Below, one piece after another: positions 10,682 through 40,532 of a DNA stretch of 64,000 nt. Below the pieces are notes generated by a model, which was not told the DNA's origin, did no database searches, and saw only the letters and a program-made list of their open reading frames with translations. A program made the translations under genes and the position numbers. This stretch comes from Bacteroidaceae bacterium (GTDB lineage Bacteria > Bacteroidota > Bacteroidia > Bacteroidales > Bacteroidaceae): NCBI GenBank assembly GCA_024697785.1, contig JAILEU010000079.1:1-64000 (forward strand), read 5' to 3'. The first letter of the stretch is position 1. The number at the start of each line of letters is the position of its first letter.

Positions 10682-10752
10682 GGTGAGTTGGCCGAGCGGT
10701 TAGGCAACGGTCTGCAAAACCGTGTACAGCAGTTCGATTCTGCTACTCACCT
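10682..10752 (+). tRNA. tRNA-Cys(GCA)
   Basis: GGTGAGT...ACTCACC acceptor; anticodon loop CTGCAAA; T arm CAGTTCGATTCTG. Confidence 0.93.
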
Positions 10753-10755
10753 CAC
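10741..10755 (+). other. attL core (3' end of tRNA-Cys)
   Basis: TGCTACTCACCTCAC identical to 59051-59065. Confidence 0.88.
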
Positions 10756-10765
10756 TTATGATTCG

Positions 10766-10796
10766 GATAGCCATCCCGCAAAACGGGGTGGCTATC
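10766..10796 (+). terminator. Hairpin just inside attL (possible substitute terminator for tRNA-Cys)
   Basis: GATAGCCATCCCG-CAAAA-CGGGGTGGCTATC followed by GGTAGTTTT. Confidence 0.55.
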
Positions 10797-10948
10797 GGTA
10801 GTTTTAAGAGGATGTGTAAGTTACGATGGGCAGAAAATAGGAATTTTTTCGTACTTCCGTGCAACAGTTCGGACGAATGGGCTGCAAAACGGTCTACACA
10901 GGGACAAAACAACATACATATTTCGCAGATAAATAAAACATTATAGCC

Positions 10949-12109
10949 ATGAACGTAACATTCTACATTAGGAAAACCAACAAGGAGGACGAGGTGGGAA
11001 CGGTGTCCTATTCGTTCTACGTGAAAAGAGAGAAAGTAAACCGCACTACGAAGCTGCGCGTCCACGAGAAGGACTGGGACGAACGGCGCGAACGCCTCCG
11101 CCGTGGGGCCGAGCATGCCGCGGACTACAACCTTATCCTGGACAAGATAGCCGCACGCATAACCGACGTCGAGGTGCGCTTCCGCCTGATGAACCGCAAC
11201 CCCACGAGAGAGACGTTCATGCGTGCGCTCTTCAGGCCGTGCGACTACGACAACTTCTTCGACTACGTGGACAGCATACGGGCGAGGGATGCGCGTCTGG
11301 GCGTGAGCACGCGGAAGACGGAGAAGACGGTCTTCGACAAGCTCCGGCAGTTCCGGCCCGGGCTGGCCATCGAGGAGATAGACCGGCAGTTCCTCGACGA
11401 GTTCCTCGCCTGGCTGATGAAGGACCGCGACAACAACCTGAACACGGCCAACAAGAATATCTCCGTGCTGCGCAAGTATGTGCTGGCGGCGAAGCGCGAC
11501 GGATACATCGACACGGATCCCTTCGAGGGCTGGCGCATGCCGCGGCGGCAGCCGTCGGTGGTGTTCCTCACGGAGGAGGAGCTGCAGCGCCTGGTGGAGA
11601 TGTACCGCGACAGCAACTACGACTACCTCCACCACCGCGCGCTGGAGACGTTCCTCTTCCTCTGCTTCTCGAGCCTCCACATCGGCGATGCGCGCCAGCT
11701 CACCATCGAACAGTACGGCGACGGGACGTTCACCTACCGGCGCAAGAAGCTGGAGACACGCACCATGACCGACATCATCGTGCCCATCAGCGAGCCCATG
11801 CGCACCCTCACCGCCAACATGGTGGGCACGCGGCGCCGTGGGCCGGTCATCGTCGGCGCTCCCTCGGACCAGGCCATGAACCGGGCCCTGAAGGACATCG
11901 CCGACGATGCACGCATCAACAAGAACCTCTCGCTGAAGGTGGGACGACACACGTTCGCCACCATCTTCCTCCGGAGGACGCACGACCTGCTGTCGCTGAA
12001 GAGCATCCTCGGACACGCGGACATCAAGGACACGCTGGTCTATGCCCACGTGATGGACGAAGATAAGAGGACGGGGGTTCATACGGCCTTCGGGGAATTC
12101 GATGTATAA
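10949..12109 (+). CDS. int: Tyrosine recombinase / phage integrase
   Basis: C-terminal catalytic motifs GRHTFATIF, LGHADIKDTLVYAHV. Confidence 0.92.
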   Translation: MNVTFYIRKTNKEDEVGTVSYSFYVKREKVNRTTKLRVHEKDWDERRERLRRGAEHAADYNLILDKIAARITDVEVRFRLMNRNPTRETFMRALFRPCDYDNFFDYVDSIRARDARLGVSTRKTEKTVFDKLRQFRPGLAIEEIDRQFLDEFLAWLMKDRDNNLNTANKNISVLRKYVLAAKRDGYIDTDPFEGWRMPRRQPSVVFLTEEELQRLVEMYRDSNYDYLHHRALETFLFLCFSSLHIGDARQLTIEQYGDGTFTYRRKKLETRTMTDIIVPISEPMRTLTANMVGTRRRGPVIVGAPSDQAMNRALKDIADDARINKNLSLKVGRHTFATIFLRRTHDLLSLKSILGHADIKDTLVYAHVMDEDKRTGVHTAFGEFDV

Positions 12110-12144
12110 AACGTGTGCGAAGAGACACATGGCGGTCACATGAA

Positions 12145-12429
12145 TCATGGCCACCTCTTTTCAACCTTAATGGAAGCCAGTCGCAGGAAGTCGCGACGGA
12201 TGCCCCAGATGGTCTTGATCAGGTCCAGCTTATCGATGCCTTCGCCCACCTCGATCTCCTCACTGAGGATAAGGTCGGCAAGATGCTCCATGTCCTCGGC
12301 ATCGTCTTCTGCCCAGCCGCAGACATCGGCCAGCGTCGCCAGTTCGGACTCGCCGAGCTCGGCCGTATAGCCGCAGAGGTCAATGCTGGCCACCTGACGT
12401 ACTACGGCGGTCGGTTCATTAGCACTCAT
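12145..12429 (-). CDS. Hypothetical acidic small protein
   Basis: 94-aa ORF overlapping the upstream gene by 4 bp on the same strand. Confidence 0.55.
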   Translation of the reverse strand: MSANEPTAVVRQVASIDLCGYTAELGESELATLADVCGWAEDDAEDMEHLADLILSEEIEVGEGIDKLDLIKTIWGIRRDFLRLASIKVEKRWP

Positions 12430-12917
12430 ACGGCACCTCCTTCCTGGTCGTCATCGTCCGACGTCGAGTCGTCGACCTCGTCGTCATCGTCCGACGGCGA
12501 GTCGTCGACCTCGTCGAACAGCAGGCCGCAGGTATAGACATCAAAAGGATCCGCCCAGAGCAGGTCGCCCGATTCGCTGTGGTCGAGGACGTAGCTCACG
12601 GGGGTTGATGTGACAGAAAGCACCGCCTCATAGCTCCAGCTGTGGTCCGAAATGGGACAGACGCAGCGGAGGCGGGGCGTCCTTTCACGGCCTCCCAGAT
12701 AGGTCTCTATGTGGAACTGGATGCCGAACTCCCTGGACACCTCTTCGGCCTTGCGGCGCAGGTCGGCCACAATGAACGGCCACGAAGAGTCGGGGACGAG
12801 GCAGCTGTCGTAACGCATGAAGGCATAACGCTGCAGCTTGTCGTAGGCAGCAGCCGGCTCGGGAAGCGGATTCATGCCGACCTCGAGGAAAAACAGTCTG
12901 TCGTTCTGGTGTCTCAT
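12426..12917 (-). CDS. Hypothetical protein with repetitive acidic C-terminus
   Basis: Start trimmed to MRHQNDRLFF (12917), ATGA overlap with the upstream ORF; tail DEVDDSPSDDDDEVDDSTSDDDDQE. Confidence 0.6.
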   Translation of the reverse strand: MRHQNDRLFFLEVGMNPLPEPAAAYDKLQRYAFMRYDSCLVPDSSWPFIVADLRRKAEEVSREFGIQFHIETYLGGRERTPRLRCVCPISDHSWSYEAVLSVTSTPVSYVLDHSESGDLLWADPFDVYTCGLLFDEVDDSPSDDDDEVDDSTSDDDDQEGGAV

Positions 12918-13183
12918 AAGGCACCTCCTTCCATGCTGCCCACGAGGCCGAGGATGACGAGGAACAGGAGCACGCCGGCGTAGCACGCCAGCACCTGCAG
13001 GCGGGTGAACGCCTCGCCCGTGATGCGCACCCACAGACGGCTGGGACGGCGCAGCCAGGCGCGAAGGCGCACGGACAGGGATGCGACGGATTGTTTGACA
13101 CTGGCCACCGTGTCGGTGACGTTTCTTCTCTCTCTGACCGGAACTAAGGTGAAGCCGGTCACCACCTTCAATGACTGTTGCAT
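12914..13183 (-). CDS. Small predicted membrane protein
   Basis: Start at MQQSLKVV; hydrophobic segment LACYAGVLLFLVILGLVG. Confidence 0.55.
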   Translation of the reverse strand: MQQSLKVVTGFTLVPVRERRNVTDTVASVKQSVASLSVRLRAWLRRPSRLWVRITGEAFTRLQVLACYAGVLLFLVILGLVGSMEGGAL

Positions 13184-13186
13184 TGT

Positions 13187-13252
13187 GTATGTTTTGTTAG
13201 CAAGGCAGACAAAAAGAACGGCTGCCGATCCGTTGCTAACAAAACATACGAC
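13187..13252 (-). other. Long stem-loop in the 5' leader upstream of 13183
   Basis: GTATGTTTTGTTAGCAA ... TTGCTAACAAAACATAC, 17-bp perfect inverted repeat enclosing GGCAG/CTGCC. Confidence 0.8.
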
Positions 13253-13424
13253 GGTGCCCTTCGGCATCAGTTGGTTTTCGGATGGCAGCCGCCTCTGTTT
13301 CGTACAACATCATTTTCTTGAATTCGAGAAAATGATCGAGGGCATAAAGAAGGCCCATTTCGCGATGGGCGTCTCTGCGACGCCGGAGGGACGGTGGCTG
13401 ACCGTCATATGTATGTTAGCGCTG

Positions 13425-13456
13425 CAAAGGTAGGGGATATTTACTAACTAACCAAA
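13425..13456 (-). promoter_or_regulatory. Bacteroidetes-type promoter (-33 TTTG, N20, -7 TACCTTTG)
   Basis: Reverse complement of CAAAGGTA (13425-13432) and CAAA (13453-13456). Confidence 0.6.
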
Positions 13457-13594
13457 GAAAACAGCGGAAATTTTCGAAAAATTTCCCGAAACATGCTGCA
13501 CAACATAAAAATCCCCGGCGGACTGACCGTCGGGGATGCGCGCAGGAAGCGAGTTTCGCGCCGTCAAACAAAAACGCAACTTTTTTTTGCAATT

Positions 13595-14002
13595 CTATTC
13601 TTGTGCGCCAACCGCAAATTTATAGTCTTCCTGAATGGTGTTGGACACGTCAAAAGAGGGGAGGATGATGTTGCCCATCATAGTTCCCTCAGTCTTACAG
13701 TGCAGTATTCCGCGTGATGTTCCTATGGTCTGGACTACAAAATACTCCATTGTCTGCTTGGGGATAGTAATCATTCCATCAGCCATGCAAGCGTTCCAAT
13801 CTTCGGGGAATATGGCAAACTCACAGAATACCGACAGGATCATAAAGCACGTATCCTGTTCATAAAAGGAAAAGCTCGCAAGCACTCCTATCTGCTTCTG
13901 GGCGGGAGCGTGTTTGGGAGTTATGGTCAAGCGTACTTCATATTCACCAGGGACAGGCGCTTGTGTAAGTATCGCAAACTGCTCTACAGTGATTTTTACC
14001 AT
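13595..14002 (-). CDS. SecB-like chaperone-family protein (tentative)
   Basis: MVKITVEQFAIL...EFAIFPEDWNACMADGMITIPKQTMEYFVVQTIGTSRGILHCKTEGTMMGNIILPSFDVSNTI resembles the SecB-like layout (late TxRGxLxxKTE...ILPxxxV segment). Confidence 0.5.
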   Translation of the reverse strand: MVKITVEQFAILTQAPVPGEYEVRLTITPKHAPAQKQIGVLASFSFYEQDTCFMILSVFCEFAIFPEDWNACMADGMITIPKQTMEYFVVQTIGTSRGILHCKTEGTMMGNIILPSFDVSNTIQEDYKFAVGAQE

Positions 14003-14013
14003 TCTAATCCGTA

Positions 14014-14445
14014 TCATGCGGCCTTTCTGTTTTGATTTGGCATAATAGTTTCAAACGATTCGGAGGAGGACGAAACCACGGATTCCTGATTCTCGGATTC
14101 ATAGGTTACATGTCCCTCCCAAATGACAGCACAGCTGGTAATAATCAAGGGAATGGAAACCAGAGTGCCTTGGAAGACCTCGGCATGTCCAGAAAGACGG
14201 AAGAGTCTTTCTTCGTCGCAGAATAGGGGGGCATCGTCGGGGAACATCAGATTCATCTCATCCTCAAAGCTCATCGACTCCCTGCAGAACGCTTCGTTGT
14301 CTTCTATGACTGCCGATGGGGAGTAAGATACAAGATAGCGGTCCCGAGCATCGCTGTACTCAAACTTGATGGTAAGCCATTCGTATTTTCTTACCATCTC
14401 CTTTGCCCAATCGCGGAGGGCCTGCCCAATCTTATCTTTATTCAT
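14014..14445 (-). CDS. Uncharacterised middle gene of the HEPN cassette
   Basis: 143-aa ORF overlapping the HEPN stop by 4 bp and directly abutting the SecB-like gene. Confidence 0.6.
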   Translation of the reverse strand: MNKDKIGQALRDWAKEMVRKYEWLTIKFEYSDARDRYLVSYSPSAVIEDNEAFCRESMSFEDEMNLMFPDDAPLFCDEERLFRLSGHAEVFQGTLVSIPLIITSCAVIWEGHVTYESENQESVVSSSSESFETIMPNQNRKAA

Positions 14446-14837
14446 GATGCTGTTTTAATGAACCTGTTAAGTTGTGAGACCAACCTTTCCGCCTGCGATT
14501 TGCAGTCAACTCCCTCGTCGAGCGTAAAAACCCTGCCGGTGTAGTCCGCTTCCTTTCTCTTTTCTTTCAAGTCTCTGAAATCTTGGGCGAATTGCCTTTC
14601 TTCTTTGTAATCCTTAATCTTGTTTTTTATCTTATCCAGTATCAATTCATGTGAGTCCTTGCTCCTCGTCAACGCCTTCTGTTCTTCATACGAAATTGGG
14701 TCGTCAATCGCATTGGCCAGCTTGTAACACATCAGCTGAAGAACCCCGTAATAGGAACAATGCACGCTTTGCGTAGGACATCTCTGTTCAATGAGAATCT
14801 GGGCAGCATGCAACGTGGCATCTGATTTTTTCTTCAT
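14442..14837 (-). CDS. HEPN-domain protein (UPF0332-like)
   Basis: SVHCSYYGVLQLMCYKLA...SHELILDKI...DFRDLKEKRKEADY: HEPN/UPF0332 pattern with R..ADY; RSKDSH also fits RX4H. Confidence 0.65.
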   Translation of the reverse strand: MKKKSDATLHAAQILIEQRCPTQSVHCSYYGVLQLMCYKLANAIDDPISYEEQKALTRSKDSHELILDKIKNKIKDYKEERQFAQDFRDLKEKRKEADYTGRVFTLDEGVDCKSQAERLVSQLNRFIKTAS

Positions 14838-14882
14838 GTGGTTTGACGGTATGCGGTATTGGTATCCAGCTCAAATTCGATG

Positions 14883-14914
14883 CAAAGATATAACTAACTT
14901 ACTAACCACACAAA
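14883..14914 (-). promoter_or_regulatory. Bacteroidetes-type promoter for the HEPN cassette (TTTG-N20-TATCTTTG)
   Basis: CAAAGATA (14883-14890) and CAAA (14911-14914) on the + strand. Confidence 0.6.
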
Positions 14915-14958
14915 AAAAACAATGTTAATTTTTTCGTTTCATGAAGAAATCCCTTGCG

Positions 14959-17166
14959 TCAGTAGGCGGTGGCGGTGCGGGTGACGGTGACCTCGGTGGA
15001 CGAGGTACGGGTGGACTCGCCCTTCTCCCAATGGTTCCAGCCTGTGCGCTTGTAGCTGTAATGACAGTCGAGCACCAGCCGGTAGGTGTAGGTGAAGTGG
15101 GCGATGGAGGCCACCTGCTCGGCCGTGGGCAGCTCTGCATCGTTGGTGATATGCTTCCCAATTTCGGTCCAGGTGCACTCGAGTATCTCGATGGTGGCGC
15201 CCGGGTACTGCGTCTCGAGCGCGCTGCGCGCGTCCTGCAGCAGGGCGGCGCGGACGGCATCCTCATTGCTGTCCACGGCCCAGTAGCCTGCTGGTCGTGC
15301 GACGTCGGCAACGGGGACGGGCTCGGAGGGCGACAGTTCTTTCATCGTGCGCAGGGTGACGCCACGGGTGGCGTGACGGGAGAGCGGGAAGGCCTGGCTG
15401 AGGGTGTCTATGAGCACGGGCTGGCCGAAGAGCGTCTTAGGCCTTGCGAAATCGGCCACGTCGGCGGCATATATGCCGTGCAGCCGTGTCTCCACGCGGC
15501 GGTTGGAGTAGCGCAGCAGACGGTCGTAGGCTGCCCAGTACTGGGCATAGGCGCCGCTCTCGCCGACGTAGAGAAGGCTGCTGTGGTAGGGGTTGCCAAA
15601 GCTGTCCACGAAGTGGCTGCCGTCGGGGGCGTAGCAGAGGGGACTGCCGTAGAAGAGCCCGTAGGGCTGTCCGTCGCCGGGGGTGACGAAGTCCCCATGG
15701 GCGAAGCAGAGGGCAAGGTCGGTGGAGCGGGTGAGGGTGTCGTCGTCCTGGGCAGAGGCGGCAAGCTGTGTGTGGGCATTGCGCACGCCACTCAGGTAGA
15801 GAGGCAGCGCAAAGAGGTTGAAGGGAGGCAGACCGCCGACGGTGGCCGTGCCGCGGTACTGGTACATGGGGACGAGGGTGTCGGCACCGTCCACCGCCTC
15901 GGCTGCCACCCTGTCCGTGCGGCGGTTCCAAGGCCAGTGCATCGAGGTGAAGAAGGTCTTGTGCATCTGCGTCTCGCCGTTCATGAAGATGGTGCCGGTG
16001 AACAGATCCTGCTCGTACTTCGGCACGCCTTTCACAAGACGGCCGCCGGCATTGGTGTCGGTGAGCGCACCGTACTTCGTCAGGAACGTGGCAAAGCTCT
16101 CCTCGCGTGTGTCGCCGTAGGTGTAGCTGCTCTTGCTGGAGAGCACCAGCTGGCGGGGCTCGTTGAAGTCAAGCGCCGGACGCGAGGCATGGAAGGGGGT
16201 GAGGTCGTCGTCGGGCTCCGCTGCCAGCGTGTCGCGCACCAGCACGCAGCGGGCCGTCTGGCTGCCGCCATCGAGATAGAACACCGCGCCGAAGTGCGCC
16301 CTCAACGTGTCAAGCAGCTCGTTGACGGTGCAGTCCGGCAGCAGGTCGGCATAGGAGAGCGAGCCGGTGACAATGGCGTCGGCCGTGTTGTTCAGCATCA
16401 CAAGGTGGCGGAGCTGGGGGTCGGTGTCGAAGACGTTGTCGGCAAGCACGTAACCGTAGCAGTCGAAGAGGATGCGGAGGAACCGCCCCACCTTCAGGAA
16501 CGGCGTGATGCCGTAGCCGCGCGGCACAAGCACCGTGTTGCCCTTCGCGCTGTCACCCACAGCCACCGTGCGCTCGGCACTATATAATGTAGTGCCGATG
16601 AGGTCTCCAGGGCGGCGCACAGTGTCGTCGCGATACACTTCGTTGAGCACCGTGCAGACGGGGATGGCGTCTGCGCCTGCATCGTCCGCGGGTTCATCGA
16701 ACTCAACGGCCACCGGGAAGACGTGGTAGTCCAGCTCCACTTCCCGGCGATAGCAGGCGTTCATCAGCCCGATGAGCGTGCCCAGCGGGTCGATGTCGTC
16801 GGGCGTATAGACGGGAAGCCCGGGGATGTCGCGGAGCTTGCGGTCGGCCCACTCGGCATACACCAGGCTTTCATCCGTCCCGAGGGAGACGGCGATGCCG
16901 TCATCGGACACGCCGACCAGGTTAATCTTGCAACGGCGCCAATAGACGCCGTCGGCAAAGGCGCCATCGCGCACGTCGTGACGGGTGGCGGCATCGATAC
17001 GCCCGGGGAAGCCGAGCAGCCGCATGTTGTGGGGTGTCGCGGGAAGCGTCACAGGGAGGGACTGGCTGCCCCGCTCGTTGAACAGCGGCGAGGTGAGGCC
17101 CCACTCCAATGTGCAGTTGCGAGGGAGGTCGAGGACCTCGTCGCCGATGTAGATCTTCAGAGCCAT
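14959..17166 (-). CDS. Phage tail-associated protein downstream of tape measure
   Basis: 735-aa ORF directly after tape measure; MALKIYIGDEVLDLPRNCTLEWGLTSPLFNERGSQSLPVTLPAT. Confidence 0.65.
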   Translation of the reverse strand: MALKIYIGDEVLDLPRNCTLEWGLTSPLFNERGSQSLPVTLPATPHNMRLLGFPGRIDAATRHDVRDGAFADGVYWRRCKINLVGVSDDGIAVSLGTDESLVYAEWADRKLRDIPGLPVYTPDDIDPLGTLIGLMNACYRREVELDYHVFPVAVEFDEPADDAGADAIPVCTVLNEVYRDDTVRRPGDLIGTTLYSAERTVAVGDSAKGNTVLVPRGYGITPFLKVGRFLRILFDCYGYVLADNVFDTDPQLRHLVMLNNTADAIVTGSLSYADLLPDCTVNELLDTLRAHFGAVFYLDGGSQTARCVLVRDTLAAEPDDDLTPFHASRPALDFNEPRQLVLSSKSSYTYGDTREESFATFLTKYGALTDTNAGGRLVKGVPKYEQDLFTGTIFMNGETQMHKTFFTSMHWPWNRRTDRVAAEAVDGADTLVPMYQYRGTATVGGLPPFNLFALPLYLSGVRNAHTQLAASAQDDDTLTRSTDLALCFAHGDFVTPGDGQPYGLFYGSPLCYAPDGSHFVDSFGNPYHSSLLYVGESGAYAQYWAAYDRLLRYSNRRVETRLHGIYAADVADFARPKTLFGQPVLIDTLSQAFPLSRHATRGVTLRTMKELSPSEPVPVADVARPAGYWAVDSNEDAVRAALLQDARSALETQYPGATIEILECTWTEIGKHITNDAELPTAEQVASIAHFTYTYRLVLDCHYSYKRTGWNHWEKGESTRTSSTEVTVTRTATAY

Positions 17167-17190
17167 ATATCAAAGACTGTCTTTAAGGTA

Positions 17191-20100
17191 CTAACGCTTA
17201 TCCCTGCGGGTGAACGGGGCTTCGCTGCGGCTCCGCAGGTCTTCTGCCTTGTCGATATCCGTAAGGAGGACGTAGGCCTTCAGGAGGGTGGGCCATGCGC
17301 GCATGAGGGCCTTGATGTCGTCGAGACGCTCCAGCACGGCCGTGTCATCAGAACCTGACACGTGCGATGCTTTCGGGGGGAGCGCCGCGTAGTTGCCTTC
17401 AGCACGCTGGGGGACCGTGCCCCTGCGGGCGTCGTTGATCGCATCGACGACCAGGCCGTAGTTCACATGAGCCTGCAGGCGGCGGAGGTCGGTAGCATTG
17501 ACAATCAGTTCCGCCCCGCTCTCAGCGATCAGGGCGGGCTGACTGACGATGCCCGTCTGGGGACGGCCTACCCACGGCACATGTGAATAGGTCTTGCCGT
17601 CCGATGCTCCGATGACGTCGTAGCGGCCGGAGGCATACTGCACGACGCGCTCCATCGCAGCCGGCGCCGCCGACGCCGCCGGACCGGCGGAGGGTCCCGA
17701 CGACAGACTCATGGCCTTGACCTTATTATATTCAGCCAGGGCAGAGACGTACTGCGCCGCACCCGTGGCCGCCAACATGGTGGCTGCTACGGCACCGGCC
17801 ACAGGACCGAGCTGGGCAAAGCCGGTCATGATGGCCACCGCCGTGTCGGCCGTGATCTGCGACAGCTTCATGACCAGGTTCGAGAGGGCGTACTTTTTCT
17901 GGATCTCGAGCTTGGCATTGGCCTGCTCGGTCTCCAGGGCCTGCGTATCCTCGCCGTTGTTCTCGGCGGCACGGATAAGCACTTCGTACTTGGCCTCCAC
18001 AGCATCGATCTCGGCCTGCTGCAGGGCAGCGACGGCATCCGATGCTACGCTGTGCAGCCGGTCGTAGTAGGCACGTGCCTCAGAGAGGCGCAGCTCGCGC
18101 AGCGCCCGCTCATGCTCGGCCTCGGTCATGTACTTATACTTCAGGTAGAGGTCGAGTTCCTTACGCTTCAGCTCGTACTCGCTGGCGATGCTGTCCTGCG
18201 TCAGCATGCCGTGCCACTTCTCCTCGGCGGTGAGCTCGCGCCGCTCTTCCTGGAAGGCGCGGCGCCGGGAGTCGCGCTTCAGCTTGTCGCTCTCGTCGAA
18301 GTACCACTGGTCGAGTGCCAGCATCGCCTGCTGGTAGAGCTGATAGGCCTGCAGGTTGGCCGCCTGACGCTCCTGCTCGTCCTGATAGAGCTTCTCGTTC
18401 GCAGCCAGCACCGCCTGATAGTACTCTTCCAGGGACTGCTGCTTCTGTGCGTATTCATTATCGACGGCGTCGAAGGGACGGGCACGACGGCTCACCAGGT
18501 CGCGCCCTTCTTCCAGCTTCTTAAGACTATTCTGCATGACCTCTTCAATCCGGATGCGAGCCTTCGCCGACTCATCGGCGGCCTTCTCGCGCTCGCGATG
18601 GATGCTGCGCAGCTTCTTCGTGCGCTGCCCTTCCTGATCGGTCTCCACGCGGCTCATCTCGGCGTGGTACGACGTGAACAGTCCGGACAGCTGCTCGTAG
18701 TGCGTGCGGTCAAGCTCGGCCATGCGGACATTGTACTGTTCCTTGGTGACAAGCTTCTGCGCCAGCTGTCGCTCGAAGTTCCGCTTGTCATCCTCGTACT
18801 GCTCGTTGAGCAGCGTGATCAGCCCGTTCTCGCCTTCGTACTTCTCGACGAGGATATCAAAAGCGGTACTTACATCACCTCCGTCATCGCCTCCGTCATC
18901 GCCACCGCCACCGCCGGTGCTTGAAGTGGCGATAAAAAAGCCATCGGCCTCAATCTGTTGAGTTATCTCACGTATCGCAGCAGCATACTGACGCAATTCC
19001 TCTTCAGTCTTTATCCTAACATTACGCGCTTTGTTATAAGCATCTTCCAATGATTTGTCCACGGCATTGGCATTGGAGGCAATGGATCGAGTTCCTGGCG
19101 TTGACAATTTCTGTTGCGCTTGGAACATTGTTTCCCTCTTGGAAGAATTCCAAAGACGCTTGGATTTCTCTTCTTCCTCTTGCAAGCCGGGAAGTTCACG
19201 CTCCAGCCTCATTTGTTCTTTGGTGAGCTTCAGGAGTTCTTCCTTGGCCGCCTCGAGACGGATAGCTTTGGTTAGATTATCAATGTATGTCGTGAGGGCT
19301 GTATTATTGTCATTGATAAGCGTGTTCTCTTTCGTAAGTGCCCCATGATAGTCGGGTACAATCTTCTTCAGCTCGTTCAGCGCGGACAAACGTTGGTTGT
19401 AGGTTAGGGCATTATTGTGTATGGCATCGTTGAGGATTTTTATACGTGCTGCCTCTTCTGCCATACCGTCAGCCGTTATCTTGGCAATCTCGTTCATGCT
19501 GCGTTGCGCTACGGTCACCTCGCGCGTATGTTTAGCATAGTTTCTCAGGAACGAAACAGCAATCGTCAATACGGTTAAAAAGGCTCCAAGGGGATTTGCC
19601 TTAATTGTAGCCCACAATGTCCTAAAACTCTTCTCCAGTGTTTTCGTCCAGAAAACCTTCAGTTTGTCTGCTATGACAGCCCTATTCACCATTATGGTAT
19701 ATGCTGAGAGGGCAATAGTTGCCGTTGCAATTGCAGTTCCGTAACGGGCAATTAAAGTGACTGTTTCGGAGATTATCTTCAATGAAATCGTCCCTAACGA
19801 ATAAATACTCGCAACGACCGGCTGGAGCTTTTCACCGAGCTCCACGCGCAGCGCCTGAATCTGCTTGATGTGTTTCTCGCGCTTGGCCTGAAGGGTATTA
19901 TTCATCACATCGAACTCATGCTGCGCCTCAATATTCTCGGCATAGGCTTCACTGGCTTGCTGCTGGGCTATGCGAATCTTGTCGGTATGCTGCGCCAAAG
20001 TGGTAAGCACTTGAACAGCGCGTTTACCGCTCATATTCATCTCGTCGAACATGGGTGCAATCTCCATAAGGCCGCCACGGTCATTCATTTTCTGAATGAA

Positions 20101-21414
20101 AGTGATGACAGCCTCGTTCATATCCTCGCGGACGAGCTTCGTGAAGGTCTCAACCTCTAACGAAGCGAGACGGGCGAACTTGGCAGGATCCTTGGCCATA
20201 TTCACGATGAGCGTCGAAAGAGCTGTGGCTGACATCTCCACCTTCTGCATATTCTGATCGAGCGCACTGCCGAGGCCGAGGATATCGGCGATGGTTATGT
20301 GGGCCGTCTCGCCGACGCCGCCGAGGCGCGAAGCGAATTCAACCAGGTAGGGTTCGGAGGCTGAGGAACTCTTGGCCAGTTTCGTCACAGCACTCGCTGA
20401 ACTCATCATGGCGGTCTCAAGACCGAGACGCTTATCTTCACCGAAGAGCTGCGACAGCTTTCCAATATTCTTCACCGCGTCCTCTCCGAGATCTTCACCC
20501 AAAGCAATCTTTATTTTGTCGGCCGTTTCGACGAAACGAGTCAAGTTCTCCACTCCCTTGATGCCGAGACGGCCGGCGTCAGCAGCAAGAGCCTCCAGCT
20601 CCAATTGCGAAGTCCGGGTGTTGATTTCTCCAAGCGAGCGGTTGAGTTTATGCACTTCTTCATCGGTGAGACCCGTGTATTTACGCACTTTAGCCATTGC
20701 TTCCTCTATATCCCGCAAGGCGGCTACCGCCTTACGGCCTGCACTGATGAGCGCCGTCAGGCTGGTCATCGAGGCGGTCATCATCAATGCGTATCTATTG
20801 ATCGCCCGCGCAGCACGTGACAACAACCCCTGGCGCGCGGCCAGATCGCTATTCCATTGTTTATCGACAGCCTTCAGGCGGACGGTGGTATCGCGCAGCA
20901 GCTCCAGCGTGCGATTATATCGCTCGGTACCGGGAACCAGCTCACGCAACTCGCGCTTCAGCGCAGCCTGTGCGACCTTCAGCTGGTTGTAGGTGGCGCC
21001 GGAGAGATTGTTCAGCGTCTGGCGCAGCTGCTCATTCTTCTGACGCTGCGCCTCCACCTTCTTCTCAAAGCTGGCAAGCGAAGTTTCGGCGCGTTTCGTC
21101 TCGCGCGAGCAGTCGGCAAGCGTTTTATTCATCTTCCTCAGGTCACCCTCATAGGCGCTGATCTTAACACGCAGCTCGGAAGCCTGCTCACTCTCGCCCT
21201 TGCCTGCAGCCTCCAAGGCGGCAAGCTGCTGCTTCATCGCGCCAAGGGAGACAGTAAGATTATCAACGGACGTCTTCTGTGCAGCTCCGGCTGCTCGAAG
21301 ATCATCCAACTTCTTACGGTAACCCTCCAGTGCAGCCTCCATGCTCTTTAGCGACTGTGCATACTGACTGCTGTCAAGATAAACCTTGATAGATCTCGTT
21401 AAATCCTGTGCCAT
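17191..21414 (-). CDS. Phage tail tape measure protein
   Basis: 1407 aa; long coiled-coil regions, central hydrophobic segments, TP901-like layout (LSALISAGRKAVAALRDIEEAMAKVRKYTGLTDEEV). Confidence 0.88.
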   Translation of the reverse strand: MAQDLTRSIKVYLDSSQYAQSLKSMEAALEGYRKKLDDLRAAGAAQKTSVDNLTVSLGAMKQQLAALEAAGKGESEQASELRVKISAYEGDLRKMNKTLADCSRETKRAETSLASFEKKVEAQRQKNEQLRQTLNNLSGATYNQLKVAQAALKRELRELVPGTERYNRTLELLRDTTVRLKAVDKQWNSDLAARQGLLSRAARAINRYALMMTASMTSLTALISAGRKAVAALRDIEEAMAKVRKYTGLTDEEVHKLNRSLGEINTRTSQLELEALAADAGRLGIKGVENLTRFVETADKIKIALGEDLGEDAVKNIGKLSQLFGEDKRLGLETAMMSSASAVTKLAKSSSASEPYLVEFASRLGGVGETAHITIADILGLGSALDQNMQKVEMSATALSTLIVNMAKDPAKFARLASLEVETFTKLVREDMNEAVITFIQKMNDRGGLMEIAPMFDEMNMSGKRAVQVLTTLAQHTDKIRIAQQQASEAYAENIEAQHEFDVMNNTLQAKREKHIKQIQALRVELGEKLQPVVASIYSLGTISLKIISETVTLIARYGTAIATATIALSAYTIMVNRAVIADKLKVFWTKTLEKSFRTLWATIKANPLGAFLTVLTIAVSFLRNYAKHTREVTVAQRSMNEIAKITADGMAEEAARIKILNDAIHNNALTYNQRLSALNELKKIVPDYHGALTKENTLINDNNTALTTYIDNLTKAIRLEAAKEELLKLTKEQMRLERELPGLQEEEEKSKRLWNSSKRETMFQAQQKLSTPGTRSIASNANAVDKSLEDAYNKARNVRIKTEEELRQYAAAIREITQQIEADGFFIATSSTGGGGGDDGGDDGGDVSTAFDILVEKYEGENGLITLLNEQYEDDKRNFERQLAQKLVTKEQYNVRMAELDRTHYEQLSGLFTSYHAEMSRVETDQEGQRTKKLRSIHREREKAADESAKARIRIEEVMQNSLKKLEEGRDLVSRRARPFDAVDNEYAQKQQSLEEYYQAVLAANEKLYQDEQERQAANLQAYQLYQQAMLALDQWYFDESDKLKRDSRRRAFQEERRELTAEEKWHGMLTQDSIASEYELKRKELDLYLKYKYMTEAEHERALRELRLSEARAYYDRLHSVASDAVAALQQAEIDAVEAKYEVLIRAAENNGEDTQALETEQANAKLEIQKKYALSNLVMKLSQITADTAVAIMTGFAQLGPVAGAVAATMLAATGAAQYVSALAEYNKVKAMSLSSGPSAGPAASAAPAAMERVVQYASGRYDVIGASDGKTYSHVPWVGRPQTGIVSQPALIAESGAELIVNATDLRRLQAHVNYGLVVDAINDARRGTVPQRAEGNYAALPPKASHVSGSDDTAVLERLDDIKALMRAWPTLLKAYVLLTDIDKAEDLRSRSEAPFTRRDKR

Positions 21415-21475
21415 AGATTTATTATATTTCCATAGCACAAAAATAGCCTGTCAGGAACAGGCGGCAAAGGACAAA

Positions 21476-21682
21476 CTACGAAAGAATAGCGGCAAGTAGG
21501 ACGCCGAAAATAACAGCGCAGACTACGAATGAAGTGAAGGTTGAACTGCCAGATTCAGATGGTCGATTCTCCGAAGGTAATGGCCTTGCATGACGTGGGC
21601 GTGTACGCTCTTCCTCCTCGTCAGCCTGAACAGTAGCGTTAATGAGGGTGATGTCGTGCAAGGTTGGGTTCTGAAATAACAT
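21476..21682 (-). CDS. Small membrane protein
   Basis: 68 aa with C-terminal TM FTSFVVCAVIFGVLLAAILS. Confidence 0.4.
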   Translation of the reverse strand: MLFQNPTLHDITLINATVQADEEEERTRPRHARPLPSENRPSESGSSTFTSFVVCAVIFGVLLAAILS

Positions 21683-21763
21683 GGCGGTTCTTTTTTCTGC
21701 TGCAAAGATAGGTCATCTTCCGGACTCCTGCAAGAGGAGGATATATGTTTTGCAGCATATACA

Positions 21764-22426
21764 TTATAGGTATAGGAACTCACTATGCACAACCATGTCG
21801 GCGCAGTAGCGCGCAGCGATGTCGAGCAGCTGCGGGGCGTAGCGGTCCATGACGGGATTGAACCAGTCCTTGGGTGACCGCCTGCCGTGCCCGGCCTTGC
21901 CGAGACTGGCGGGATTGGTCTCCATGCGCTGCCCCAGACGGTTCAGCCAGTGTGAACCCTGTTTGCCACCCTCGCCACGGCCTGCACCATGGTGCAGATA
22001 GATGCCGTGGCGGGCAAAGCTGAAGCCGATGGACACCGGCTCCTTGCCGAAGCGCTTATCGTAGCGCACCTTGTAGCTGATGGAGTAGGTCAGCCGTCGC
22101 GACGGATCGGTCTCTTTCGACAACCCCGTATGTTGGGCTGAACTGATACGTAGAGCCTGCACGACCTCATCGCCCCACTTCTTCAGCGCCGTGTCGAAGG
22201 CCTTCAGGGATTCCCTGTCCTCGAGGCGCACAATCTGCATGGCATCGGCGGGGCTTTCGAACACGACGTGAGGCTGCTGGCTGCGCCCCCTCACCTCGTA
22301 GGGCACGAAGATGTCAGCCTTCGTGGCCAGCGCCTTCATGCTCCGGAACCGCCAGGCGGGAAGCGCGTGCTGCGCCTCCAGCCAGTCGTTCAGGGTGAAC
22401 TCGTCAAGCGGCTTGTTGAGCGGCAT
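21764..22426 (-). CDS. Phage tail-completion/head-tail protein (putative)
   Basis: Position in the tail operon; overlaps neighbour context. Confidence 0.55.
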   Translation of the reverse strand: MPLNKPLDEFTLNDWLEAQHALPAWRFRSMKALATKADIFVPYEVRGRSQQPHVVFESPADAMQIVRLEDRESLKAFDTALKKWGDEVVQALRISSAQHTGLSKETDPSRRLTYSISYKVRYDKRFGKEPVSIGFSFARHGIYLHHGAGRGEGGKQGSHWLNRLGQRMETNPASLGKAGHGRRSPKDWFNPVMDRYAPQLLDIAARYCADMVVHSEFLYL

Positions 22427-22428
22427 GA

Positions 22429-22917
22429 CTAAACCCCCTCCACGGGCATAAACAGCGTCTCGTCGGGCGCGTAGTCATCATACGCCACCATGGAGAACTC
22501 CAGCGCCACGCCGTGGAAATTGTCGGCTATCGGACCGACGGCGAAGATGCTTGACGAGCGCGACATCTCCATTGGGTAGCGCCTGATGAGCACGTTGCGT
22601 ACGGCTTTTGCCAGTAACCGGCATGCCTGCTGTGCGGCATGCACCGTGTCGGGATGGTCGTTGTCGGTACTCTGGGCCAGGATGATGAAGAACTTGTTGC
22701 TGTCCTCCAGCCCCTCTGCGCCGAAGCCCCGCGTGTCTGTCTCGCCGGTATCGACACCGATGAGTACCGTACCGCTCACCGCGCTCAGCCTGTCCTCCAG
22801 GTCGGCGAACCATTCGCCTCCGCTGGCCTTGAAAAAGCGCTGCCGTTTGTCGGTGTGGCCGACAGCCCGCAACCTGCGCGCCATCTCCTCGCAAAATTCA
22901 TAGTGATTGTAGTTCAT
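22429..22917 (-). CDS. Phage tail terminator/minor tail protein (putative)
   Basis: Start at MNYNHYEFCEEMARRL (22917); position upstream of 21764..22426. Confidence 0.5.
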   Translation of the reverse strand: MNYNHYEFCEEMARRLRAVGHTDKRQRFFKASGGEWFADLEDRLSAVSGTVLIGVDTGETDTRGFGAEGLEDSNKFFIILAQSTDNDHPDTVHAAQQACRLLAKAVRNVLIRRYPMEMSRSSSIFAVGPIADNFHGVALEFSMVAYDDYAPDETLFMPVEGV

Positions 22918-23328
22918 AGGCCGTTGTTCCTTGGGTGCGAGAGCAAAATTAGAAACCATACGCCTGAGCCCAAAGGACAAACCACGCTGCCGCTGTACCA
23001 GGGACATCTGCGGGGTCACGCGCAGCACTCTTCTTCCTCTCGTGGCCATGATGGAGCATGGTCCTGACTTCGGCAGGAGCTGCCACCACATAGGCGTTCA
23101 TCCATTTACGCCGCGAAGGTAGCGCATCCTCTCTACGCCTGTCAAGGGTGAATGGAACACGCTCTGAAAAATTTGAAAAACTTTTCCTGGGAAAACTTTT
23201 GTAAAATTTTTCCGGCGTGCCCTTGACTGGCTATCGCTTCTGCGCTGTTCCTTGCCGCGTAAATGGGCATGAACCCTACGTTCAGCAGCCCCATTACACG
23301 AAGTCAAACCATTTAATTCTTATCCATC

Positions 23329-23757
23329 ATGGCAACAAAGACAAAGAAAGAGAGTGCTAACACGCGTATCGAAACCCCGCAGACAACCCCGGCACAGCCG
23401 CAGAGCGAGGCCGCCAAGAAAGGCGTACAGTTTACTAACCCATTCACCCTCACACCTAAGGAGGAACGGCGCAAGCGCCTGCACGAAATCACCGGCAAGC
23501 TCGTCGAGGAGGCGAAGGCCACGGGCGACTGTTCCAACCGCAACCAACTGCTGCTGCGCTACTACAAGGACCAGTGCGGGGCTACCGTCCTGAGGACGAT
23601 GGAGGCCTGGGCCGAGCAAGGCAAGCGGGTACGGAAGGGCGCCAAGGCGTTCCTTCTCTGGGACAGACCGCAGGCATCCAGCGAGGAGGAGGCAGGGAAC
23701 TTCTTCCCCATGAAATTCGTCTTCGACATCCGACAGGTGTACAGCGTCAAGGGATAA
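23329..23757 (+). CDS. ArdC-N-terminal-like protein (putative anti-restriction/ssDNA-binding)
   Basis: NRNQLLLRYYKDQCGATVLRTMEAWAEQGKRVRKGAKAFLLW resembles the ArdC N-domain pattern (W...G..V.KG.K....). Confidence 0.45.
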   Translation: MATKTKKESANTRIETPQTTPAQPQSEAAKKGVQFTNPFTLTPKEERRKRLHEITGKLVEEAKATGDCSNRNQLLLRYYKDQCGATVLRTMEAWAEQGKRVRKGAKAFLLWDRPQASSEEEAGNFFPMKFVFDIRQVYSVKG

Positions 23758-23803
23758 ACAACCACGGGCGGGCCACAAGGCTCGCCCTTCAATCTACACA
23801 GCC

Positions 23804-24331
23804 ATGCTACGTTACGCCCTGCACGACTACTGGCCAAAGCGCCGCCTAAGACGAGCTTCGTTCGAACAGAAGGAAACGAGCCGCCGCATCCTCGACTTCA
23901 AGGACGGACGCCGCTATGCCACAGCCTGGGCAGCCAGGGAGGTAGCGAAAGCGCTTGCCGCCATCAATCTCCGAGATGTAGTCATCGCCTGCTGTCCCGC
24001 CTCGTGCCAGCGGACATACGTCCGCCGCTACCGTCGGTTCTCGGCTGAGCTGTGCCAGATAAGCGGCGCTGCCGACGGCTTCAGCCATATATCGGTAACC
24101 GGCCGGCGCAGCAAAGTGCACATCGACAGACAGGCGATGGCAGGTGGACAGTGGCTTGCTAACGTTGCCGTCGACGCCGGCTTCTTCCAAGGCAGAAAGG
24201 TAATCATCTTCGACGACATCTGCACGACAGGGAAGACGGCCGACGGCTTTATCAGACTGCTCAGCGATGCCGGGGCTGAGGTCAAGATGGCGATATTCCT
24301 CGGCAAGACAAAACGGTTTATCCATCACTAA
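23804..24331 (+). CDS. Phosphoribosyltransferase-like protein
   Basis: PRTase motif KVIIFDDICTTGKTADGF. Confidence 0.72.
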   Translation: MLRYALHDYWPKRRLRRASFEQKETSRRILDFKDGRRYATAWAAREVAKALAAINLRDVVIACCPASCQRTYVRRYRRFSAELCQISGAADGFSHISVTGRRSKVHIDRQAMAGGQWLANVAVDAGFFQGRKVIIFDDICTTGKTADGFIRLLSDAGAEVKMAIFLGKTKRFIHH

Positions 24332-24337
24332 ACAATC

Positions 24338-24502
24338 ATGATCATGTATAAAATCAAAGTTGCCTACGACAAGAAGGGAATGAAGATATACTGCGTCTGC
24401 AGGGACGGAAAGCTGAAGTACTGTACCAGCTCGCCTGACAAAGCCTGGCGGGTTAGGCAGATGTTCCTGAACTTCTACCGCAAGGAGGGCGTAGCCGTGT
24501 AG
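24338..24502 (+). CDS. Small hypothetical protein (54 aa)
   Basis: ATG at 24338: MIMYKIKVAYDKKGMKIYCVCRDGKLKYCTSSPDKAWRVRQMFLNFYRKEGVAV*. Confidence 0.5.
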   Translation: MIMYKIKVAYDKKGMKIYCVCRDGKLKYCTSSPDKAWRVRQMFLNFYRKEGVAV

Positions 24503-24610
24503 GTGGCGGCTATAGCCGCCCTTCTTGGTGGGTTACAAACGTTTGTTTAAGCCCAAACGGCTCAAGCAAGCGTTGTTTTATTTTTATCCAAGGGGTCTAT
24601 CTCTCTGTTT

Positions 24611-24822
24611 GTACAAAGTTACGGCGTCCGGCTGACACGTCCAAAAGGGTCTGAATAAACGTTGTAGGGAACCCACCATTTTTTCTGCGAAAAAATCGTT
24701 ACCCCTTCAAAGTTTCTTCAGCTTCCTTTTGGAGCCAGTCAGCCGGAGGTAAGGAACGGTAGCGCAGCGGCATAAGCCGCCACGCTACCGTCCCTTACTG
24801 GCGCCGTTGTCTCTGTACAAAC
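24611..24822. other. Nested inverted-repeat intergenic element
   Basis: CTGTTTGTACA...TGTACAAACAG outer arms; GTCCGGCTGAC/GTCAGCCGGA; internal ACGGTAGCG...CGCTACCGT hairpin. Confidence 0.65.
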
Positions 24823-24890
24823 AGATGAGAACGTCCGTGTTTGAATCTGTTAGTTTATTTATTGTTTAACCCTTTAATACCTCAAAAACT

Positions 24891-25109
24891 ATGGTAAACA
24901 AAAGGAACCGCGCTCAGCTGGAAGTTGCGCCCAGCAAGTTCTATGTGATTTCGGGACATCAGGACTGGCCCGAAACGTTCTACATGGTCTTCTTCTCGGA
25001 GAAGGAGGCAAACGAGGCCGCAGAAGCCGAGGCAGACAACAACTGTTGGTGCTACGTGGCTACGTCGTTGCCTAAGTCAAACAAGCCGTATCACGAGATA
25101 TGCGCTTGA
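24891..25109 (+). CDS. Small hypothetical protein
   Basis: 72-aa ORF in the + accessory cassette. Confidence 0.5.
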   Translation: MVNKRNRAQLEVAPSKFYVISGHQDWPETFYMVFFSEKEANEAAEAEADNNCWCYVATSLPKSNKPYHEICA

Positions 25110-25178
25110 CACATCCGGAGGGCAGCCGCAAGGCTGTCCCCTTCATTTCCTTTCGTTCAACATTTAAACCTCAATCAT

Positions 25179-25442
25179 ATGGAAAAAACATTCTCAACCA
25201 TCAACGATTTCGTCACAGTAACCGAAACCCACTACCACGTCTGCTTCAACGGGTGGACACGCGCGACAAAGAAATCTGTCACCTACGCTTCCTTCAGGGA
25301 TGCTTACGAGGCATTCGTCGAAGGGCGCATGAGAGCGGTCAGGAAGAACATTGAATCCAGGAGGGACAGGTTCTCCATTCAGATCAGCTGGGACATGCCA
25401 GTCATCGGCAAGTACGACCACAAGCACAGCTTCGTAGGTTGA
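25179..25442 (+). CDS. Small hypothetical protein
   Basis: 87-aa ORF in the + accessory cassette. Confidence 0.5.
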   Translation: MEKTFSTINDFVTVTETHYHVCFNGWTRATKKSVTYASFRDAYEAFVEGRMRAVRKNIESRRDRFSIQISWDMPVIGKYDHKHSFVG

Positions 25443-25704
25443 GACAGGGAGGCGGCCGCAAGGCCGTCTCTTTTTTTGTTCGACAGGGTGAAACAAAAAT
25501 GAACGGCGCTACTGGTAAGGCAAAGGAAAAGCCCGTGCAGCGCCGCTCACCTCAAAAACTGCGACAAAAATAGGGAGAATATCCCGGTTGGCCAAACATT
25601 GACGCGAAAAAAAGCTGAGCCTATGCTGCAGAACATAAAAGCCCCGGCGCAATGGCGTCGGAGCTTCTCCCGGGCATGGGTGTGATAAGATGATGCCTGA
25701 AGTG

Positions 25705-26145
25705 TCAAACAAGGCGGGTGCCCAGGAGTGTACGTCCAAGGTCATGCAGGGCATCCTGCACCATCTTCGCCTCTTCGGAGGTGAAATGTGCTTCGCGCCC
25801 GTTCACCTTGTGACCGCAGAGACGCTGCGACAGCCACGACTTGCTCTTTCCGCAACGCCCTGCAATATAGCTCAGCGACACGGCCTGCGGCACGTCGCCC
25901 AGCTTGCGGCGCATGGCTTCGGCACGGAGGTCGGCGATGTCTTCGTCGATGGCGGACAGGATGCGGTAGTGGTCTTCAACGCTCTCCCTGGTGTAGGCTT
26001 CCAACTCTTCGGGGGTCATGGCGGATTCTACTTCAAGCTGGTACTGTTTGGCTGCTTCCTTCTCTTCGGGAGTTACGGCGCGGTCATACCGCTCCATGAT
26101 CTTCTTCATGGTCGGGTTTTGAATTTGGTCATGTAAGTTTCTCAT
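25705..26145 (-). CDS. HTH protein, DUF5053-like
   Basis: VSLSYIAGRCGKSKSWLSQRLCGHKVNGREAHFTSEEAKMVQDALHDLG. Confidence 0.65.
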   Translation of the reverse strand: MRNLHDQIQNPTMKKIMERYDRAVTPEEKEAAKQYQLEVESAMTPEELEAYTRESVEDHYRILSAIDEDIADLRAEAMRRKLGDVPQAVSLSYIAGRCGKSKSWLSQRLCGHKVNGREAHFTSEEAKMVQDALHDLGRTLLGTRLV

Positions 26146-26199
26146 TGCTTTTCTTTTTATGGTTTTTTGTGGGCAGCCCCTACGGGGCCGCCCCTGTGA

Positions 26200-26400
26200 T
26201 TACTTCTCTTCGTCTTCGTCTTCTCCTTCAAGCGGTATTCCCAGACCCTTCAGGGCTTCATCGACAATCTTCCAGCGCTCGAGGTAGTAGTTTATGAGCT
26301 TGTTTCTCGTTTTCTCGGATATCCCCTTTTGATTGGCAATACCAGCGAGGAGATTCTCGATGTACCTCTTGTAGGCTAAGGCTTCTTCTTTGGTAGGCAT
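26200..26400 (-). CDS. Small hypothetical protein
   Basis: Start trimmed to MPTKEEALAYKRYIENLL (26400), preceded by a consensus promoter. Confidence 0.55.
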   Translation of the reverse strand: MPTKEEALAYKRYIENLLAGIANQKGISEKTRNKLINYYLERWKIVDEALKGLGIPLEGEDEDEEK

Positions 26401-26448
26401 TGTTTCGTTGCTTTGAGGTTTGACACTTATGTTGTTCTTATCACGTTG

Positions 26449-26479
26449 CAAAGATAATAAACTTTTGTTTATTGACAAA
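26449..26479 (-). promoter_or_regulatory. Bacteroidetes-type promoter (TTTG-N19-TATCTTTG)
   Basis: CAAAGATA (26449-26456) and CAAA (26476-26479) on the + strand. Confidence 0.65.
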
Positions 26480-26559
26480 GAAAAAACCGATATTTTTTTC
26501 AGAAAAGCCGATTTTTTAACATTTCAGGGATGGATGCTACCTAAGCGGGTAGAGAGGAC

Positions 26560-26621
26560 GCTGCGCCGACCGAGCGCGCCCCGTTCAGCAAGCTGGGCGT
26601 GTCGCGCTCCGTCGGTGCAGC
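26560..26621. other. Long GC-rich imperfect stem-loop
   Basis: GCTGCGCCGACCGAGCGCG ... CGCGCTCCGTCGGTGCAGC (17 of 19 pair). Confidence 0.7.
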
Positions 26622-27117
26622 TTAAAAGCGGTGTCATCGAGCGCAGCGAACCCCGATTTCGCTCCGCGATGCTCTGCGAAATTGGATTTCGCTACGCACG
26701 ATGCGTTTTGAGGGCGCGTTTTGGGGCGTGGGGCGGCTCTCGGGGCGGTAGGGCGGCGGGGCGGCGGCGTTACATATAACAGCACAAAGGCTTTTCGGCC
26801 GAAGCCGTCCGAGAGGGCGGCGCGCGGTTCCGTGCGGTAACAAGGGAAGAATCCGTTCTTCCCTTGACCCTTCCGGTTTTAAACACAGCCCGTTAAAGTG
26901 CGCCAACGTGGGAATAAGGCGCGAAAGCCAGGAAAGCGGTTCCCGGGGCATCGGAAACCGCATGAAAAAGGCAGGACAGCACGTGTCCCGCCCGCTCAGT
27001 CAAACAATGAAAGAGAACTGTATCCGGCGGCCTGCATCGCTGCTGTCCGCCGGCAGGGGTTACAACCCAACACACACATGAATTATCCTGAATCCAATTA
27101 CCATAAAAGATTATACG

Positions 27118-27927
27118 TTATTTCTGCAAGGCTCGTTTAGCATCTTCCGCCCTGCGGATGGTCTCATCCATGCTGAAGAGGGCGTCGTAGAGAAGGCCGC
27201 GACGGACGGCGTCTGCCTTTGTCATGTCACCGTCGGCCAGGGCGTTGATGACACGCTGCTGCTCTTCAAAGACATTGCCTCCTGAGGCGCCACCGCTGAA
27301 GACACGCGGAAACAGCTGGCGGATGGCAGACAGGCAACCGCACCAGTACCAGAACATCACTGTCTGGCGTTCCTTGGACAGACGTGAGAGACGGCGGGCG
27401 TCACGCTCAATGAGCGACGGGTCGAAGTGTTGACGACGGTGCCACAGGCAGGCCAACAGGCGCGGGAGGGCCTGCAGGTCGCTGGAGGTGAGCTGAGACA
27501 TGTAGGTGTGGGCATAAACAAACTGGTCGTAGGTGAGGCGGTCAAGCACGTCGCCGGGGCCAAAGAAGGGAAACAGGCCGTCGGTCAGGTGTGGATAGGG
27601 GTCTCGGGTGAGACCTGAGACAACAATATAGGTGCCTGGCTTTTCCTCAATCTCGCCGAAGAGGAAATCATAGACGGAGATGAGTCGGGCCATCTCGTCG
27701 GTGGTGATGGTGCCGCGACGATGACGCCAGACGAAGCGGAAAGTGTCGTCCCCAACCTTACGCGTGATACGCAGTGCTAGCAGGTTGAGGACGAGATAGA
27801 GCTTGACCGTCTCGACTGGGAGCGAGCTGGAGACAAGACGGGCAATGAGCTCGAGCTGGGCAGCGCTGAACTCCTGCCATTCGGACGGCAATTGTACGGT
27901 CTTGGAACCTATGACAACGGGACGCAT
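27118..27927 (-). CDS. Phage structural/tail assembly protein (putative)
   Basis: 269 aa, in the late operon after portal. Confidence 0.5.
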   Translation of the reverse strand: MRPVVIGSKTVQLPSEWQEFSAAQLELIARLVSSSLPVETVKLYLVLNLLALRITRKVGDDTFRFVWRHRRGTITTDEMARLISVYDFLFGEIEEKPGTYIVVSGLTRDPYPHLTDGLFPFFGPGDVLDRLTYDQFVYAHTYMSQLTSSDLQALPRLLACLWHRRQHFDPSLIERDARRLSRLSKERQTVMFWYWCGCLSAIRQLFPRVFSGGASGGNVFEEQQRVINALADGDMTKADAVRRGLLYDALFSMDETIRRAEDAKRALQK

Positions 27928-27930
27928 GAC

Positions 27931-30254: not shown

Positions 30255-30256
30255 TG

Positions 30257-30526
30257 TTAATGATAGACTTTCTTGTGGTTGAACTCAGTAATCAGGCACG
30301 TCCTCACCTTGCGGGGGTGGAGGGTGTGGGGTGGCTGGATGTTGACCGTCCCGCCGCTGCTGTGGCGCGAGGTAAGGGAACAGCCCGTCCACGTGATAAA
30401 CGCCCGGTCGCTCCGGCTGAAGAAAGTGAGCGAAAACCGCACTGGTCGACCATCTGGCCTGAGACTGGCCATATCTTCCAACATCTTCTGATATTTGATG
30501 AAGTGTTCATTCATCGCGGGATGCAT
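30257..30526 (-). CDS. Small hypothetical phage protein
   Basis: 89-aa ORF between portal and lysis genes; overlaps neighbour by 20 bp. Confidence 0.5.
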   Translation of the reverse strand: MHPAMNEHFIKYQKMLEDMASLRPDGRPVRFSLTFFSRSDRAFITWTGCSLTSRHSSGGTVNIQPPHTLHPRKVRTCLITEFNHKKVYH

Positions 30527-31344: not shown

Positions 31345-31401
31345 ACACAACGTTTTTTCTCATACAAAAGTATATACGTAGATAACGCGCGGAAAGGACA
31401 A

Positions 31402-35201: not shown

Positions 35202-35213
35202 AGCTGTTGAAAC

Positions 35214-35903: not shown

Positions 35904-35953
35904 TTTATTCTTTTTTAGCGGGGAGCCGCGCAAGCGACTCCCCTGGTGAATGG

Positions 35954-37222: not shown

Positions 37223-37260
37223 GGATAGGAAAGGTTAAAAGGTTAGTTGTTCGTGGCTGA

Positions 37261-38229: not shown

Positions 38230-38291
38230 AGCATGATTATTTACGCTACAAAGATAGGCAGACGCACCCCGCGCGAAAAAGACTAAAAACG

Positions 38292-40522: not shown

Positions 40523-40532
40523 AGGGTATGAC

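Follow-up and report, generated by a model that had tools for sequence, protein, structure and literature searches.

Toxin-antitoxin-chaperone (TAC) modules, recently recognised as phage-defence systems, have been described in the HigBA, HicAB, MqsRA and CmdTA families, with RelE-type, HicA, MqsR and ADP-ribosyltransferase toxins. The rules used here to judge a candidate TAC were taken from published work (PMC5105189, PMC6377645, PMC11618068, PMC9519451). It has been reported that TAC antitoxins of other families carry a C-terminal extension that is lacking in their two-component homologues (PMC5105189), and that CmdA, like other TAC antitoxins, ends in the ClpXP signal LAA (PMC11618068). Two systems tested in E. 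coli, CmdTAC and MqsRAC, defend against phages. We found no TAC with a HEPN toxin in the open-access literature searched, in agreement with an earlier sequence-only reading of the present DNA which knew of no described HEPN/SecB trio; most subscription papers and preprints fell outside this search, and priority is thus not certain.

The 64,000-nucleotide stretch of DNA analyzed here (the window) contains a Bacteroidales prophage in which three packed minus-strand genes lie next to a tail-module gene (Table 1). The three open reading frames proposed by the sequence-only reading were verified, as was the 4-bp overlap of genes 1 and 2, which is ATGA. Its start of gene 3, at 14002, proved to be an internal ATG: we placed the start at 14017 because both the viral contig L019 and L020, a HigBA relative, keep this overlapping start, giving a second ATGA overlap, and the three frames together span 14837 to 13595 with 4-bp overlaps at both junctions. 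The predicted promoter between the cassette and the tail gene was an exact match to TTTG-N20-TATCTTTG and sits 45 nt beyond the tail-module stop codon (14959).

Table 1. Positions of the prophage, cassette and sequence features in the window.
Feature	Position	Strand	Remark
Host prophage	10741..59065		48 kb, between 15-bp att repeats
att repeat TGCTACTCACCTCAC, 15 bp	10741-10755 and 59051-59065		First copy at 3' end of tRNA-Cys
Integrase	10949..12109		Prophage gene
Tape measure	17191..21438		Prophage gene
Major-head/protease match	37261..38400		Prophage gene
Promoter TTTG-N20-TATCTTTG	14883..14914	-	Bacteroidetes-type, exact match; cassette's own
Gene 1	14442..14837	-	HEPN-domain protein, 131 aa, predicted toxin
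Invariant H63 codon	14649-14651	-	In gene 1
R94-K-E-A-D98-Y99 motif	14541..14558	-	In gene 1; R..[AS]DY in place of RX4-6H
Gene 2	14014..14445	-	Middle protein, 143 aa, predicted antitoxin
Gene 2 C-terminal extension, residues 94-143	14017..14166	-	Predicted chaperone-addiction region, ends KAA
Upper edge of DNA similarity to L020 HigBA-TAC chaperone gene	14017..14022	-	blastn
Gene 3	13595..14017	-	SecB-like chaperone, 140 aa

The motif TTTGN18-22TANNTTTG occurred 11 times in the window, every time on the minus strand, against 0.32 expected (~30-fold); 10 of the 11 exact TTTG-N18-22-TANNTTTG minus-strand motifs fell within the prophage. Upstream of related trios the full promoter motif was present in 6 of 23 cases, compared with 42 of 2954 background windows. 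A second promoter (13425-13456) lies downstream of the cassette, and between it and the next small gene we observed a strongly structured leader on the minus strand (13170-13424; MFE -86 kcal/mol, z -4.6). Within it are a stem of 17 perfectly paired bp (13187-13203/13233-13249) and the small ORF LYETEAAAIR, found in L019 as well. The leader matched nothing in Rfam, and 120 further genomes of the family contained no DNA relative of it.

The viral contig L019 carried the cassette at 77.6% DNA identity, the match running from 14928 to 13589, i.e. from shortly before the promoter to just past gene 3. Here the promoter is kept at the same distance (-75) with a different spacer; the tail gene lies outside the match, and a primase-like gene stands upstream of the cassette instead. 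Conversely, L087, from the same genus, has a 68%-identical tail gene with no cassette behind it. Promoter and genes are thus kept as a block in a differently arranged phage, and the label "moron" given to the cassette earlier is supported; a moron equipped with its own promoter would give this pattern. It could be argued that the three genes are unrelated leftovers of the late operon whose HEPN and SecB labels reflect chance resemblance, as Pfam, NCBIfam and PHROG searches returned nothing above cut-off for the three window proteins. However, the block from promoter to gene 3 survives between different flanks in L019, the structural models were of high confidence with specific PDB matches, and the conserved co-occurrence of the trio described below refutes this explanation, whose probability we regard as negligible.

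The sequence-only reading had called for a check of gene co-occurrence. A pattern scan of GTDB and IMG/VR gave 88 HEPN loci, three of which were cut by contig ends. Among the 85 assessable loci, 76 showed a HEPN gene followed by a middle gene and a SecB-like gene, and the other 9 had the HEPN and middle genes without SecB. The 76 trios comprised 71 called by script and 5 called by hand (L097, L144, L151, L161 and L164), in some of which the HEPN or SecB frame is interrupted. In sampled genomes from the order and the family of the window organism, profile searches likewise found such trios; because some genomes occur in both sets, the counts are not additive. As in known TAC systems, a SecB-like chaperone gene therefore forms the third gene of the operon. 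In several loci (L144, L151, L161, L164, L139 and L045; trios or pairs) the HEPN frame was broken and the antitoxin frame intact, which is what a toxic HEPN protein would lead one to expect. A further observation was made at L079/L081 (G066:C96), where a HEPN trio is directly followed by a second HEPN paralogue with the C-terminus KAA.

The AlphaFold model of gene 1 (pLDDT 94) had the HEPN protein AF_0298 (2hsb) as its best PDB match, followed by HepT toxins, including 5yep and 6m6u, and Csm6; the Foldseek E-value for 2hsb was modest (0.011) with a match probability of 1.00. Similarly, PF05168 matched 14 of 17 members of the gene 1 family alignment, two of which exceeded the curated cut-off when tested singly, and the family profile found PDB entries 9xbd (R..SDY) and 9xbc (R..SDF), both HEPN proteins. 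Model and profiles agree with the earlier assignment, and gene 1 is predicted to have the HEPN helical fold. A match to CowN covered 22 residues and was discarded as chance.

Because HepT toxins, which appear among the fold matches, pair with MNT antitoxins, the locus might be a type VII HEPN-MNT system: the middle gene would then encode a minimal nucleotidyltransferase, acting on the HEPN toxin by AMPylation, and the SecB-like gene would take no part. Neither the window's middle protein nor those of relatives matched any nucleotidyltransferase family, and this identity was rejected for want of such a partner. Besides, the SecB gene was present in 76 of the 85 loci, and the evolution of the antitoxin tail follows its presence (see below). 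We consider a HEPN-MNT system very improbable.

The canonical RX4-6H catalytic motif was absent from the window HEPN protein and present in 4 of its 79 relatives, in which H63, R94, D98 and Y99 were invariant (79/79). The invariance of H26 to Q34 in the pattern-scan set was forced by the search pattern; in L062, from the profile-based set, N replaces H26. According to Anantharaman et al. (2013), another H is retained in HEPN proteins whose motif H is replaced by D, and AF_0298 was cited as an instance of a possible alternative active site; the gene 1 family, with D98 and H63 in all 79 relatives, shows the same arrangement. The same authors predicted that HEPN domains without the conserved polar residues are non-catalytic. 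The loss of RX4-6H would suit a module which is still TAC-like, but whose HEPN protein is not a nuclease and acts as a non-catalytic RNA-binding or sensor subunit that sequesters RNA or ribosomes. The four invariant residues suggest instead that an active site has been kept, and the top fold match is itself the published example of a D-for-H protein that retains another H. A non-nuclease role is therefore unlikely in our view, and RNase activity of gene 1 is plausible from its residues.

For gene 2 we found no family match in Pfam, NCBIfam or PADLOC. Comparison with its relatives in L076-L078 divided the protein into two parts, an N-terminal part of 93 residues with 47-54% identity and a C-terminal part with 18-22%. 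Antitoxins of trios were 118-218 aa long (median 143) and SecB-less partners 102-120 aa (Mann-Whitney 1.3e-6), and a terminal AA (mostly ALAA, typically YALAA) was found in 64 of 73 script-called trio antitoxins, compared with 70 of 680 background ORFs and none of the 9 SecB-less partners (Fisher 1.7e-7); both p-values overstate independence, since the loci are related and L137, L139 and L143 are near copies. Hence both the extension and the AA tail were missing in the SecB-less relatives (n=9). The tmRNA tag of the host genome is GEYNYALAA, whose end matches the YALAA tail of the trio antitoxins; the tail of the window antitoxin, NRKAA, matches the tag less well than YALAA does. The trio antitoxins thus carry a ClpXP-type (LAA-like) C-terminal recognition sequence, as do other TAC antitoxins, the KAA of the window being a weaker match. 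From the way in which length and AA tail track the presence of SecB, we infer a signature of chaperone addiction.

The gene 2 tail of the window was also compared with HigA tails of the chaperone's own lineage, and the similarity was not significant for L020 and L021 and marginal for L022 and L023; the idea that the tail was co-transferred with the chaperone from the same HigA lineage was dropped as insufficiently supported by this similarity. In other classes of the phylum, we observed distant R..DY HEPN genes together with a partner of ~90 aa (L063-L073). The partner mostly overlaps the HEPN gene by ATGA and mostly matches no known family; these units represent a candidate two-gene HEPN toxin-antitoxin class. 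Profile comparison of the middle protein with these partners aligned 36 columns at 8% probability, which is not significant, and common descent of gene 2 with them was not retained.

The model of gene 3 (pLDDT 92.7) had 5mtw, M. tuberculosis Rv1957 with the ChAD peptide, as its top PDB match (probability 1.00), and compared with E. coli SecB (1qyn) at a TM-score of 0.60. Sequence profiles connected the two SecB subfamilies weakly, and the link of gene 3 to SecB rests on the model, by which it is a SecB-type chaperone nearest to the TAC chaperone Rv1957, as the resemblance noted earlier had suggested. Its close relatives were third genes of HigB-HigA operons (L020-L025, L032 and L036), with 71% identity to L020 and 42-44% to L021 and L022, compared with 19% to the L078 chaperone. 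Genes 1 and 2, on the other hand, had L076-L078 as their nearest relatives after L019 (39-53% identity). The trees gave the same picture: window, L019 and L020 chaperones grouped together (100/100) and those of L074, L076 and L078 in another clade (100/99), whereas in the HEPN tree the window grouped with L076-L078 (90/89). DNA similarity to L020 (blastn, 73.7% over 14022-13617) began at the antitoxin/chaperone junction. Judged by these sequence relationships, the window chaperone is of the HigBA-TAC lineage and represents a natural chaperone swap, and the direction, from HigBA to HEPN modules, is suggested by the outer branches, which are HigBA chaperones. The third gene of most other HEPN trios was a PF02556-type SecB matching PADLOC CmdC (PD-T4-9_C) at up to 1e-28; gene 3 of the window matched PDC-M64C weakly and is not of the CmdC type. 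Pattern scans using the window SecB alone gave no relatives, and tblastn searches for relatives found none in phage records and one plasmid record. Solitary SecB-like genes were also seen in the family of the window organism (L026-L028, L031, L034 and L035), with no TA partner seen nearby; four were tested and formed their own clade, and they are possibly the general SecB of these bacteria. Given this separate clade, gene 3 was not taken to be a housekeeping SecB.

We consider it very likely that the three genes make up a TAC module whose toxin is a HEPN protein. The reading of the three genes as HEPN toxin, middle antitoxin and SecB-like chaperone, proposed earlier, is the best one: it withstood two of the checks that could have refuted it, as both folds were predicted and the co-occurrence is strong. 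It needs correction in the start of gene 3, in the HEPN motif, which is R..[AS]DY and lacks RX4-6H, and in the lineage of the chaperone, which is that of HigBA TACs. Gene 1 would inhibit growth, most likely through RNA cutting or binding. Gene 2 would bind the HEPN protein through its N-terminal domain, while the variable C-terminal extension with the terminal AA would serve as chaperone-addiction region and ClpXP-type degron. As in CmdTAC and the M. tuberculosis TAC, gene 3 would hold this extension, so that the antitoxin can fold and is spared from proteolysis. Titration of the chaperone, in CmdTAC brought about by proteins of an infecting phage, would lead to degradation of the antitoxin, release of the HEPN toxin and growth arrest.

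Being prophage-borne with its own promoter, the module most likely protects its lysogen from other phages or serves to stabilise the prophage. Stabilisation is the classical role of TA modules, which counts for the narrower view that the cassette serves addiction to the prophage and has no role against other phages, as does its position inside the prophage near the integrase and under its own promoter. But HEPN relatives occurred in just 8 contigs of IMG/VR and in none of the phage or plasmid records, so most copies lie outside recognised phages, which also calls for caution over a phage-defence role; in addition, the TAC systems tested in E. coli protect against phages. A purely stabilising role is possible, but we hold it to be the less probable alternative.

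The module apparently represents an undescribed, widespread HEPN-toxin class of chaperone-addicted TA systems. That this new class has an alternative H63/R94/D98/Y99 site, a tmRNA-degron-like tail and chaperones exchanged whole between unrelated TACs is a proposal towards which we lean slightly. A Bacteroidota-wide HEPN class, with SecB-less, tail-less versions and a chaperone swap, offers material on how chaperone addiction arises, and whether R..DY HEPN proteins without RX4-6H act as toxins becomes a directly testable question. If that proposal is true, prophages would carry interchangeable chaperone-gated phage-defence units.

Among known systems, HEPN-MNT (type VII; HepT/MntA) shares the HEPN-fold toxin, but has RX4HXY and a nucleotidyltransferase where the window has R..[AS]DY and a chaperone, no nucleotidyltransferase being found. 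AF_0298-type proteins (HEPN-T class, Anantharaman et al. 2013) share the fold, the D for the motif H and a conserved H elsewhere; no antitoxin or SecB partners were described for them in that work, and we found no assigned function for AF_0298. CmdTAC (PD-T4-9) shares a non-HTH antitoxin, which ends in LAA, and a SecB-like chaperone; its toxin CmdT is an mRNA ADP-ribosyltransferase, whereas gene 1 is a HEPN protein, and the window chaperone, unlike the third genes of most HEPN trios, does not match CmdC models. The HigBA-SecB TAC (M. tuberculosis Rv1955-1957; Bacteroidales L020-L022; PADLOC PDC-M64) shares the toxin-antitoxin-chaperone order, overlapping genes, an antitoxin C-terminal extension ending in (A)A and, in L020, a chaperone 71% identical to gene 3. 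Its toxin, however, is the RelE-type HigB in place of HEPN, and the window antitoxin lacks both a recognisable HTH and similarity to HigA, so that just the chaperone belongs to the HigBA lineage.
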